Shown: positions 21,819 through 24,123 of the stretch, in pieces
How positions within the stretch are numbered: position 1 is the stretch's first letter
How the letters are laid out: the number at the start of each line of letters is the position of its first letter
Assembly: GCA_947476045.1 (NCBI GenBank)
Contig: CANJNZ010000049.1
Location: forward strand, 1 to 34,129
DNA: 34,129 nucleotides
DNA from: Chthoniobacteraceae bacterium
GTDB lineage: Bacteria > Verrucomicrobiota > Verrucomicrobiia > Chthoniobacterales > Chthoniobacteraceae
Direction: 5' to 3'
Program-made: the position numbers and the translations under genes
The notes under the pieces: generated by a model
What the model saw: only the letters and a program-made list of their open reading frames with translations
Told to the model about the DNA's origin: nothing
The model's database searches: none

Positions 21819-22685
21819 TTATTTCACCATCTTTGCAGTGAGCTTGAGGATGTGCAGTTCCATCCAGCTCTCCGGCTGCGCCGTCCGGTAGGTGCCCAGC
21901 AGCACGGACTGGCCGCTGTGCACGGTGAGATTGGTGGTTGATTTGCTCGTGTGAAAACGCGGTTGCTCCACGGTGGTCTTTTTTCCGTCGGTTTCGACCG
22001 TGTATTTATCGAAACCGGTGAGTGTTGTATTTGTGGCTTGCAACTGCATGTCCAGGCGCATCGTTTGTGTGTCAAGGGTCGGCTCGATTTCCAGCGTCAC
22101 ACCACAGTTGCGAGTGTCGAAGGCGGTTGGCGTTGCATCGGTCGCGGGAGCGACATCTGGCTTCGGTTGTTCTTCACCCCCGGCGGGAGCGGCGGGCTTT
22201 TCCACCGTCTCGGCCGCCTCGTCTGTGGTTACAGGCTCTGGCGGATTTATTACTTCGTGACCGGGGATTCCCGGCGGCCCGGGCTTTTTATTCGCATTGC
22301 CGACTGCAGCGGCAAACTCGGCCGGGTATCTGACTTCGTTGTAGTTTTCCACGACTGCGCGCTGTCCGCTCTTCGTGACAAGCATCGGCCAGTCAACGAG
22401 CCTGGCTTTCTTTTTGGCGATCATCTCGTGAAGTGCCATCACGGCTTTTTCGATTCGCTTCTCGTCTTTCAGCGATTCGATCAATGGCATTGCGTCCTCG
22501 ACTGGCAGTGCGATGACCTGTATCTCGACATGGATATTGTAGTCGTCGGCATCGGGCGGCAGGGACTCGAAGCCCTCGAGTTTTTGCAATTCCTCGCGGG
22601 TAGGTTCATTTGCCACGAGCAGCAAATCGTCTGCGTGGAGAATGGGCGTGAAGACGAGCGATATGAAAAAGAGAATGCGTTTCAT
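21819..22685 (-). CDS. exported secretin-core-like protein, paralogue A
   Basis: A 288-residue protein with a signal peptide (MKRILFFISLVFTPILHA). Residues 50-125 include IHVEIQVIAL and KSGQRAVVENYNEVRYPAEF. After a Pro/Glu-rich insert (about 130-183) comes TPTAFDTRNCGVTLEIEP (185-202) and then PRFHTSKSTTNLTVHSGQSVLLGTYR (242-267). The order SGQRA, YPxEF, AFxTRxxGxxLEVEP, strand pairs, then SxxxxxLTVxxGQxVLLG follows the core of verrucomicrobial type II/III secretins, but there are no N-domains and the protein is too short for a pore of the usual kind. Its ATG overlaps the stop of paralogue B (ATGA). It is the last of three genes; the ALDH gene follows after 66 bp. Confidence 0.8.
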   Translation of the reverse strand: MKRILFFISLVFTPILHADDLLLVANEPTREELQKLEGFESLPPDADDYNIHVEIQVIALPVEDAMPLIESLKDEKRIEKAVMALHEMIAKKKARLVDWPMLVTKSGQRAVVENYNEVRYPAEFAAAVGNANKKPGPPGIPGHEVINPPEPVTTDEAAETVEKPAAPAGGEEQPKPDVAPATDATPTAFDTRNCGVTLEIEPTLDTQTMRLDMQLQATNTTLTGFDKYTVETDGKKTTVEQPRFHTSKSTTNLTVHSGQSVLLGTYRTAQPESWMELHILKLTAKMVK

Positions 22686-23392
22686 GGCCTGGATGTTTTC
22701 TGTGGTTTGATGTCTGGATTTCGCGCTGTGACGCGGATGAGTGATAAGTCGAAACCTTCGGCGGGTGCGGGCTGTTTATACACGGAGAGCAGCATCCAAC
22801 GGCCATTCGGCGCAGTCAGGTTGACGGTGCTTTTAGAGGTGTGGAAATCCGGCTGGTTGTGCCGCACCCTTACACCAGCCTTGTTTATCAGCGATTCGAA
22901 ACGTCTGAAGCCAAGCAGACGAACCGATTGAAGACAAAGTTGCAAAGAAATGGTTCGTCCGTCTGGTGAGGCCATCGGTTCGACCTCCAGAGTGAAACCC
23001 GTGGTGCGTGTTTCGAAAGCTGGTGGCACGATTGAATCGGGAGGGTTTACGATGGCCATCGGAATGGCACCCGGTTGCTGGAACTCCGTGGGATAATGCT
23101 GTTCGACGACCGTTTCCGAAACAGATCGTTCACCGTTCACCGTGCAGGTTTTTTGCCAGGCGACCAGTTCCACCCGCCCTGCGGAGACTTCCTTTTGAAT
23201 AGTGCGCACGGTCTCCTCACTGCGCTGTTCGTCATTGAGCGCAGGCACGAATTGCAATGCAGATTCTGCGGATGCCAATATGGCCATATGCTCGATGGTG
23301 ATGCTCCAGACGCCCTGCGGTGCCGGCTCAGCCGCCTTTGCTGCCAACGCGCAGAAACAAATCGCGAGGATGTGCAGGCGGCGGATGTTCAT
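22682..23392 (-). CDS. exported secretin-core-like protein, paralogue B
   Basis: A 236-residue protein with a signal peptide (MNIRRLHILAICFCALAAKAA). It is paralogous to its two neighbours: NGERSVSETVVEQHYPTEF, PPAFETRTTGFTLEVEP, LLGFRRFESL and PDFHTSKSTVNLTAPNGRWMLLSVY align block by block with paralogue A, with the long Pro-rich insert missing. The conserved order resembles the C-terminal core of secretins. The ATG at 23392 overlaps the stop of paralogue C and begins the signal peptide; an ATG at 23425 lies inside gene C and is less likely. Its stop overlaps the start of A. Confidence 0.8.
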   Translation of the reverse strand: MNIRRLHILAICFCALAAKAAEPAPQGVWSITIEHMAILASAESALQFVPALNDEQRSEETVRTIQKEVSAGRVELVAWQKTCTVNGERSVSETVVEQHYPTEFQQPGAIPMAIVNPPDSIVPPAFETRTTGFTLEVEPMASPDGRTISLQLCLQSVRLLGFRRFESLINKAGVRVRHNQPDFHTSKSTVNLTAPNGRWMLLSVYKQPAPAEGFDLSLIRVTARNPDIKPQKTSRP

Positions 23393-24123
23393 TTCGCACC
23401 ATCCTTTGATTCCGTGGTTGTCCATGCCCGGATAAAAAACAGCTCAAACGTCTTCGGCTGGTCGGGGAGCTTGTGGATGCCTGCGAGCGCACGCCCGCCG
23501 ACGCGCAGTGAGATGGTGGAGTTGTTTTTTGCGCTGAAAAATCTCGGCTGTTTCGCTACAATCCGAACCCCTTGCGGCGTGATGCCTGCGTCGAATTCAT
23601 CCCAGCCGAGAAAGCGGACGTGCTGTGCCGCCATCAAAAATTTCAAGTGCTGCCAGTCCTTCGCAAACTCAACCTGACTGACTTCAAGTGACATCCCCAC
23701 GTTGCGCGTCTCAAACGCCGTCGGTGTCAGCGCGATTGATTTCACGTCCTTTGGTAAAGATGCCAGATCCTTCTTTGAATCGAGATTGGGATATTTGGGT
23801 GCTTCAAACTCCGTCGCGTATTTCACCTCCTCGCAAGTCTCCGAGGATAGAATCCGCCATGGCTCGCCTTGTGCGAAAACCGTCGCGGCGACTGTTGCCT
23901 CACCCCGCCCGATGGCCGCCTGCACCTTGGCAAATGCCGCGTTCATCTTCGTTTCGTCGTTGAAATCGTCGAGCAATGGAAAGACGAGTTTTTCCGGCGC
24001 GATGATGGCACTCAGTTCGATGTGGAGTATCCTGATCTTTTCAGCGGGCGGCACGGGCGGCTCTGCTGCAATGGCATTGAGAACAATGCAGAGGATGGAG
24101 AGGAATGTGCCGACAGTTCGCAT
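23389..24123 (-). CDS. exported secretin-core-like protein, paralogue C
   Basis: A 244-residue protein and the first gene of the overlapping trio. It has a signal peptide (MRTVGTFLSILCIVLNAIAA), then a helical region with FNDETKMNAAFAKVQAAI. SSETCEEVKYATEF matches the YPTEF block of the paralogues, TPTAFETRNVGMSLEVSQ the central block, VRFLGWDEFD the GF block, and QPRFFSAKNNSTISLRVGGRALAG the last strand pair. The final block is the most diverged of the three. The larE stop is 72 bp upstream on the same strand, so the trio may have its own promoter there; I see no clear one. Confidence 0.8.
   Translation of the reverse strand: MRTVGTFLSILCIVLNAIAAEPPVPPAEKIRILHIELSAIIAPEKLVFPLLDDFNDETKMNAAFAKVQAAIGRGEATVAATVFAQGEPWRILSSETCEEVKYATEFEAPKYPNLDSKKDLASLPKDVKSIALTPTAFETRNVGMSLEVSQVEFAKDWQHLKFLMAAQHVRFLGWDEFDAGITPQGVRIVAKQPRFFSAKNNSTISLRVGGRALAGIHKLPDQPKTFELFFIRAWTTTESKDGAK

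Follow-up and report, generated by a model that had tools for sequence, protein, structure and literature searches.

Secretins are outer-membrane pores, and the locus described here raises the question of what three short, exported proteins that are encoded side by side and resemble the secretin core might do for the cell. The locus belongs to a Chthoniobacteraceae bacterium (phylum Verrucomicrobiota, GenBank assembly GCA_947476045.1), and positions 1 to 34,129 of contig CANJNZ010000049.1 were analyzed as one stretch of 34,129 nucleotides, hereafter called the window. Three consecutive reverse-strand genes, here named A, B, and C, overlap by ATGA at both junctions, as a preliminary description of this DNA had stated and as the sequence bears out (Table 1). 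The start of gene B was placed at the ATG inside the overlap; the mechanically called ORF begins 11 codons earlier. A signal peptide had also been claimed for each protein, and a hydrophobic, signal-peptide-like segment does open A, B, and C alike when judged by a simple hydropathy score (not SignalP). The three proteins are mutual homologues far above chance, with BLASTP E values of 4e-20 for A and B, 3e-31 for B and C, and 1e-14 for A and C. The order of conserved blocks that they were said to share is real, but the blocks are looser than claimed. Gene A deviates in three of them, with GEPWR for G-E-R, an LEV block that ends in SQ and not xP, and FLGWDEF for LxGFxxF. The trio is flanked by a chlorite-dismutase/HemQ-like gene and a presumed LarE-like gene on one side, the latter assignment being our own for a neighbor without a Pfam match, and by a same-strand aldehyde dehydrogenase gene on the other.

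Table 1 Features of the three-gene locus, in window coordinates
Feature	Position	Strand	Evidence
Gene A, first of the trio, exported mini-secretin, 244 aa	23389..24123	-	ORF; NF042912 E 8e-8
Gene B, second of the trio, exported mini-secretin, 236 aa	22682..23392	-	ORF; NF042912 E 1.6e-8
Gene C, third of the trio, exported mini-secretin, 288 aa	21819..22685	-	ORF; PF00263 E 1.7e-10; NF042912 E 1.1e-19
ATGA overlap, stop of A and start of B	23389..23392	-	Sequence; 4-base overlaps in arrays of relatives
ATGA overlap, stop of B and start of C	22682..22685	-	Sequence; 4-base overlaps in arrays of relatives
Pro/Glu-rich insert of C, residues 126-184, predicted disordered, at the place of the gate-1 loop	22134..22310	-	Low pLDDT; alignment
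Gate-1-like loop of A, residues 108-132, between two predicted strands	23728..23802	-	Secondary structure of the model; alignment

A, B, and C derive from the core of an Amuc_1098-type pilus secretin. Kinship to the secretin core had been proposed from the order of the blocks, and it held up in profile searches and in predicted structures. C passes the curated cut-off of the Pfam secretin profile PF00263 (41.2 bits against 27.5), B reaches 14.2 bits (E 0.034), and A has no match; at E 0.001 this profile is matched by 21 of 32 proteins of this short type, hereafter called minis. The C-domain of NF042912, the Amuc_1098 family, is matched by all three members of the trio (C 70.0, B 33.1, and A 30.8 bits, none reaching the equivalog cut-off of 750 bits) and by 32 out of 32 minis. 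Structures of A and C were predicted with AlphaFold2 as monomers from a shallow alignment of 32 rows. The model of C has a mean pLDDT of 80, with core blocks mostly at 90-98, and that of A a pLDDT of 87 and a pTM of 0.77; the AlphaFold training set included secretins. Compared with solved structures (VIA), the predicted fold of C gave Z scores of 14.2 for the phage secretin pIV (PDB 7OFH; 3.0 Å over 128 residues) and 14.0 for GspD (2.2 Å, 126 residues), and that of A gave 12.3 for InvG (5.5 Å, 135 residues), 12.1 for pIV (3.3 Å, 128 residues), and 12.1 for GspD. The 28 top entries had Z scores of 10.0-14.2 for C and 8.3-12.3 for A, and the next entry, the best unrelated fold, had 5.5 for both predicted models. 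The best 36 Foldseek matches of the C model were secretion-system or pilus entries holding secretins. Sequence searches of the PDB with C, with a profile of the minis, and with a serpin-like neighbor of some minis gave no lead. An artefact or a chance resemblance is ruled out by the pairwise and profile scores and by the conservation described below.

Which parts of the secretin are kept and which are lost was read from an alignment that set the 32 minis against the C-domains of 21 full-length Amuc_1098-type secretins. The beta-lip span measures 21-34 residues in the minis and 106-119 in the full-length proteins, and the span holding the 'PIIGDIPLLGRLF' ('PLLG') segment, which we take to be the amphipathic lip loop, measures 7-14 against 35. 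The minis also lack the C-terminal tail and the N-domains; the absence of the latter had been noted beforehand and was borne out by the alignment. The core of A, B, and C opens with its first strand at about residue 29-49, after the signal-like segment, with no N0, N1, or N3. The preliminary description had further supposed that gate and lip were both gone. This is correct for the beta-lip, but gate-sized loops are kept, with a gate-1 span of similar size (23-66 residues in the minis, 28-44 in the full-length secretins) and a gate-2 span that is merely shorter (30-38 against 39-54), so that loss of the gate was rejected. The Pro/Glu-rich insert once thought peculiar to one copy is the longest of the trio (pLDDT mostly 45-54 in the model of C), but loops of variable length occur at this place in other minis too. 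Shared with the Amuc_1098 family are the first strand, the helix, the gate-1 base (E..YxTEF), the PTAFETRNxGxxLEVxP block, the gate-2 hairpin, and the last strand, and nearly all minis retain the ETRN..G motif as well as Glu and Tyr at the gate base; beside the lack of the N-domains, the 'PIIGDIPLLGRLF' segment, and the tail, what sets the minis apart from that family is a beta-lip span shorter by some 80-90 residues.

These shortened spans bear on the possibility that the trio forms small outer-membrane secretin pores. The predicted secretin fold and the signal-peptide-like starts would fit such pores, but beta-lip and 'PLLG' spans are short in all 32 aligned minis, and this explanation is considered very improbable. 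An aromatic residue regarded for a time as the counterpart of the pIV membrane girdle was dropped, as it proved misaligned with that pIV residue.

The wall of the barrel was considered through two further positions, the assignment of mini residues to pIV E185 and R337 being our own. Arg occupies the R337 position in all 21 full-length secretins and in one of 32 minis; the E185 position holds Glu in all 21 full-length secretins, in 15 of 32 minis, and in none of the 15 Chthoniobacteraceae minis. Neither residue of the pair is kept in the window trio. The terms barrel, gate, and lip, the salt bridge between E185 and R337 that joins inner and outer barrel, and the description of pIV as an outer-membrane pore of 15 subunits that has a lip and the domains N0 and N3 follow a study of pIV (PMC8563730). 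Since the Arg of this bridge is lost in all but one of the minis, and the Glu in all of those from Chthoniobacteraceae, a two-walled ring may not form. The same loss would favor an alternative in which no ring is made at all, each protein being a monomeric exported beta-sandwich that reuses the secretin core to bind a ligand such as a polysaccharide or a protease. Against such a monomer stands the near invariance of the gate-base residues (E, Y..E, ETRN..G).

Whether other Verrucomicrobiota conserve the order of the three genes had been named as a check, and the order is kept in relatives. Judged by frame lengths, clear minis occur in 13 of 40 Chthoniobacteraceae genomes, seven of which carry arrays of at least three domains; by the same measure, with partial rows not counted, the other 27 have no clear mini, and most of these have a full-length secretin. 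Six of the seven arrays follow the plain A-B-C plan (the window, L038, L039, L040, L043, and L044), with 4-base overlaps at all twelve joints, the start of C in L039 being the analyst's choice. In three of the six the middle gene encodes a double-domain protein of 466-472 aa. The window and L038 are close relatives, as are L043 and L044, so that among the six arrays the independent cases number about four. In the seventh array (L045), which comprises five genes or more, including a broken one, a single 4-base overlap occurs. Double-domain minis of about 450-510 aa were seen in several lineages (L039, L043, L044, L156, L177, L178, L181, L183, L184, and L186). A hetero-oligomer would be expected to show tandem unequal paralogues that are translationally coupled and repeatedly fused, and these features speak against an exported monomer.

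In a careful tree the first-position genes form one clade (support 96/89), and orthology of the B and C positions across genera was not supported. Akkermansiaceae have arrays of their own, of two to six genes; in one of them positions 1 and 3 and positions 2 and 4 pair (100/95 and 99/97), as if a two-gene unit had been copied as a unit. A quick unrooted tree split 36 minis from 34 full-length secretins by a single branch with support 100. This tree gave a long-branch warning, which included the joining of A of the window with A of genome G033, and it was built without L114, a misread frame (with L114 two changes are needed, and the one-clade AU test gives p 0.376). No mini fell among the full-length proteins, which rules out recent truncation of a local secretin. 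In a phylum-wide draw of 240 genomes, searched at E 1e-20, one clear mini was met outside the class (G412). Genomes of genus g29, probably Akkermansia, yielded in that draw and at that threshold no mini but only long frames (848-959 aa), at one or two in each genome except three, which yielded none.

Selection on the trio was gauged against the nearest relative, with which the window shares the gene order from DnaJ to aldehyde dehydrogenase. In genome G033 as well, an aldehyde dehydrogenase gene (84% identical) lies about 6 kb from the array on the same contig. Values of dN/dS were 0.12 for A, 0.29 for B, and 0.25 for C, compared with 0.04-0.10 for five neighboring genes, and protein identities were 93, 85, and 82% for A, B, and C, compared with 96-98.5% for the five neighbors. 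The trio thus consists of real, constrained genes that change faster than their neighbors, and this faster change would again suit an exported monomer. The purifying selection also bears on whether the genes are decaying, functionless secretin copies. A relative of the trio with internal stops exists on contig 4 of the same genome, but the dN/dS values of 0.12-0.29, the order and overlaps kept over genera, and the separate branch on the tree all argue against decay, which is regarded as extremely improbable. The contig 4 relative has a lipoprotein-like start. Lipobox-like starts were seen by eye in minis at L002:1372-2034 and in L048, L049, and L054; the one in the window genome, with its internal stops, adjoins recF- and hisS-like genes (by eye), and the nearest relative's copies are open.

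Descent from a pilus secretin suggests another role, in which the trio would assist the secretin of the type IV pilus as accessory subunits, such as a plug, a collar, or an assembly factor on the Amuc_1098 ring. The fold is the same, the closest family is that of the pilus secretin, whose profile is matched by all 32 minis, and the window genome (4.37 Mb in 123 contigs) encodes a full-length Amuc_1098-type secretin on contig 9. The surroundings of the genes point elsewhere. Eight window proteins were scanned, giving chlorite-dismutase/HemQ-like, aldehyde dehydrogenase, DUF3500, GlmS-like, DnaJ, and porin matches and two proteins without a match at 1e-5; no pilus gene was among these eight, which gives no sign of a type IV pilus cluster around the trio. 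Nor was a pilus family found among the 25 commonest of 114 families in a tally of 115 neighbors from 32 loci, and the 27 of 40 Chthoniobacteraceae genomes without a clear mini mostly have the full-length secretin. An accessory role at the pilus is accordingly rated improbable.

The neighbor tally brought out a different association. It covered 32 of 34 loci, with proteins of at least 1100 aa and seven short ORFs of 122 excluded; neighboring genes were called by length. Among the 25 commonest of the 114 families the leading ones were HATPase_c (6) and Response_reg, Trans_reg_C, and HisKA (5 each). Five loci (L102, L139, L142, L144, and L154) have a common layout on one strand: a mini or a pair of minis, then a sensor kinase with two hydrophobic spans, then an OmpR-type regulator, the regulator having been checked at these five. 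A profile built from the N-terminal 285 residues of the five kinases gave 27 matches in 23 of 117 Akkermansiaceae genomes and three matches in three of 40 Chthoniobacteraceae genomes. Immediately upstream of the kinase there is a mini gene in the same orientation at 27 of these 30 matches (L157-L175, L177-L179, L181, and L183-L186), or at 23 of 26 when the four matches that seeded the profile are left out. The count includes two weak cases, L185, where the upstream double domain scores 16 and 6 bits, and L168, where the mini is cut by the contig end. A seeming kinase-mini fusion in L173 (949-aa frame) was rejected, the parts being joined by an assembly gap of N, and was counted as a pair of neighbors. 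Two of the three misses (L176 and L182, genome G506) are contig-end pieces of apparently one kinase. At the third (G532; L180 / L187:5012-6118) the upstream gene is exported and has a secretin N-domain-like stretch, as seen by eye. The kinase-linked mini of Chthoniobacter flavus is a double-domain protein in a 510-aa frame, and that of G004 likewise, in a 497-aa frame. On another tree, which included six kinase-linked minis, five of them form one clade (98) and that of L102 stands elsewhere. With few minis among thousands of genes, chance adjacency would be expected to be rare, and the linkage indicates that some minis are probably periplasmic partners of kinases. No kinase of this type was matched in the window genome (profile, E 1e-5), and none was among the eight window proteins scanned, so a sensing role for the trio is carried over from its relatives.

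Other neighbors recur beside the minis. A serpin-like exported family adjoins them in 11 of 22 cases (including L190, L191, L140, L143, and L111); five of six scanned members match Pfam Serpin at E 0.001-0.07, below the cut-off. Long VIT-domain proteins, in frames of more than 900 aa, adjoin minis in 10 of 28 cases, by position. A general VIT link was rejected, as the 17 examined of the other 18 long frames (all but that of G560) have no adjacent mini in the stretches covered, one of them lying at a contig start, and the shorter VIT frames examined had no adjacent mini. Exported proteins of about 1040-1130 aa lie directly downstream of minis at L137, L138, L145, L071, and L133. Four of these five were scanned and hold a VIT domain, three with SLBB as well, and L133 was judged by eye. 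An oxoprolinase-like neighbor was seen by eye at L118 and L127 and, by size, probably at L132, the minis there being near copies. For arrays of the window type no constant partner was seen among the neighbors examined. The serpin-like and VIT-domain neighbors would suit monomers that bind a ligand; weighed with the evidence from arrays and gate-base residues, an exported monomer is held to be unlikely.

Descent from the secretin core, loss of the membrane part, export-type starts, conserved coupled arrays, and the kinase linkage of some relatives are borne out by the data and held with high confidence. From these we infer, tentatively and at somewhat less than even confidence, the location, assembly, and function of the trio: a soluble periplasmic hetero-oligomer built on the secretin gate and acting as a sensing or adaptor module. 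In this view the C-domain of an Amuc_1098-type secretin would have given rise to A, B, and C as soluble proteins of the periplasm, which supports, as one option, the periplasmic subunits derived from a secretin that had been suggested for this locus. Of the secretin they would retain the inner-barrel region, both gate loops included, and the outer barrel's periplasmic half; the N-domains, the beta-lip, and the lip segment with 'PLLG' would have been shed. Translational coupling most likely leads to their co-production, and they would then assemble together as a ring or an arc, the gate-like loops of which would bind a partner. Given that some relatives are encoded with a two-component sensor kinase, the family as a whole probably serves for sensing in the periplasm or as an adaptor there. 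A bolder and rather doubtful extension is that Verrucomicrobiia have made a soluble periplasmic signaling module out of their pilus secretin's gate. Tandem unequal mini-secretins would form a gated hetero-ring that signals a ligand or the condition of some envelope machine; this ring would feed a dedicated sensor kinase in certain lineages and, in that of the window, would work without a kinase or with a distant partner.

Two-component systems with a periplasmic accessory protein offer a further parallel. The five kinase-linked relatives resemble these in having an exported protein, a two-span kinase, and an OmpR-type regulator; the window trio differs in having no adjoining kinase. To our knowledge, a secretin core serves as the accessory protein in no described two-component system. 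Literature searches for mini, orphan, truncated, or soluble secretins, for secretins of Verrucomicrobia, and for secretin-kinase links returned nothing on such proteins at the level of titles and abstracts, subscription papers lying mostly outside these searches, and such proteins are not described in the accessible parts of PMC3422733 and PMC2739507.

A class-wide family that has the gate but lacks the membrane part, that is encoded in ordered arrays, and that frequently neighbors a kinase would suggest that the secretin gate can work without a pore. For annotation this is a caution that not all 'secretin' matches in Verrucomicrobia are pores. Cultured species such as Chthoniobacter flavus and Haloferula rosea make the use of a secretin core as the periplasmic input of a two-component system directly testable, and the formation of hetero-rings from unequal secretin subunits would be testable there as well.
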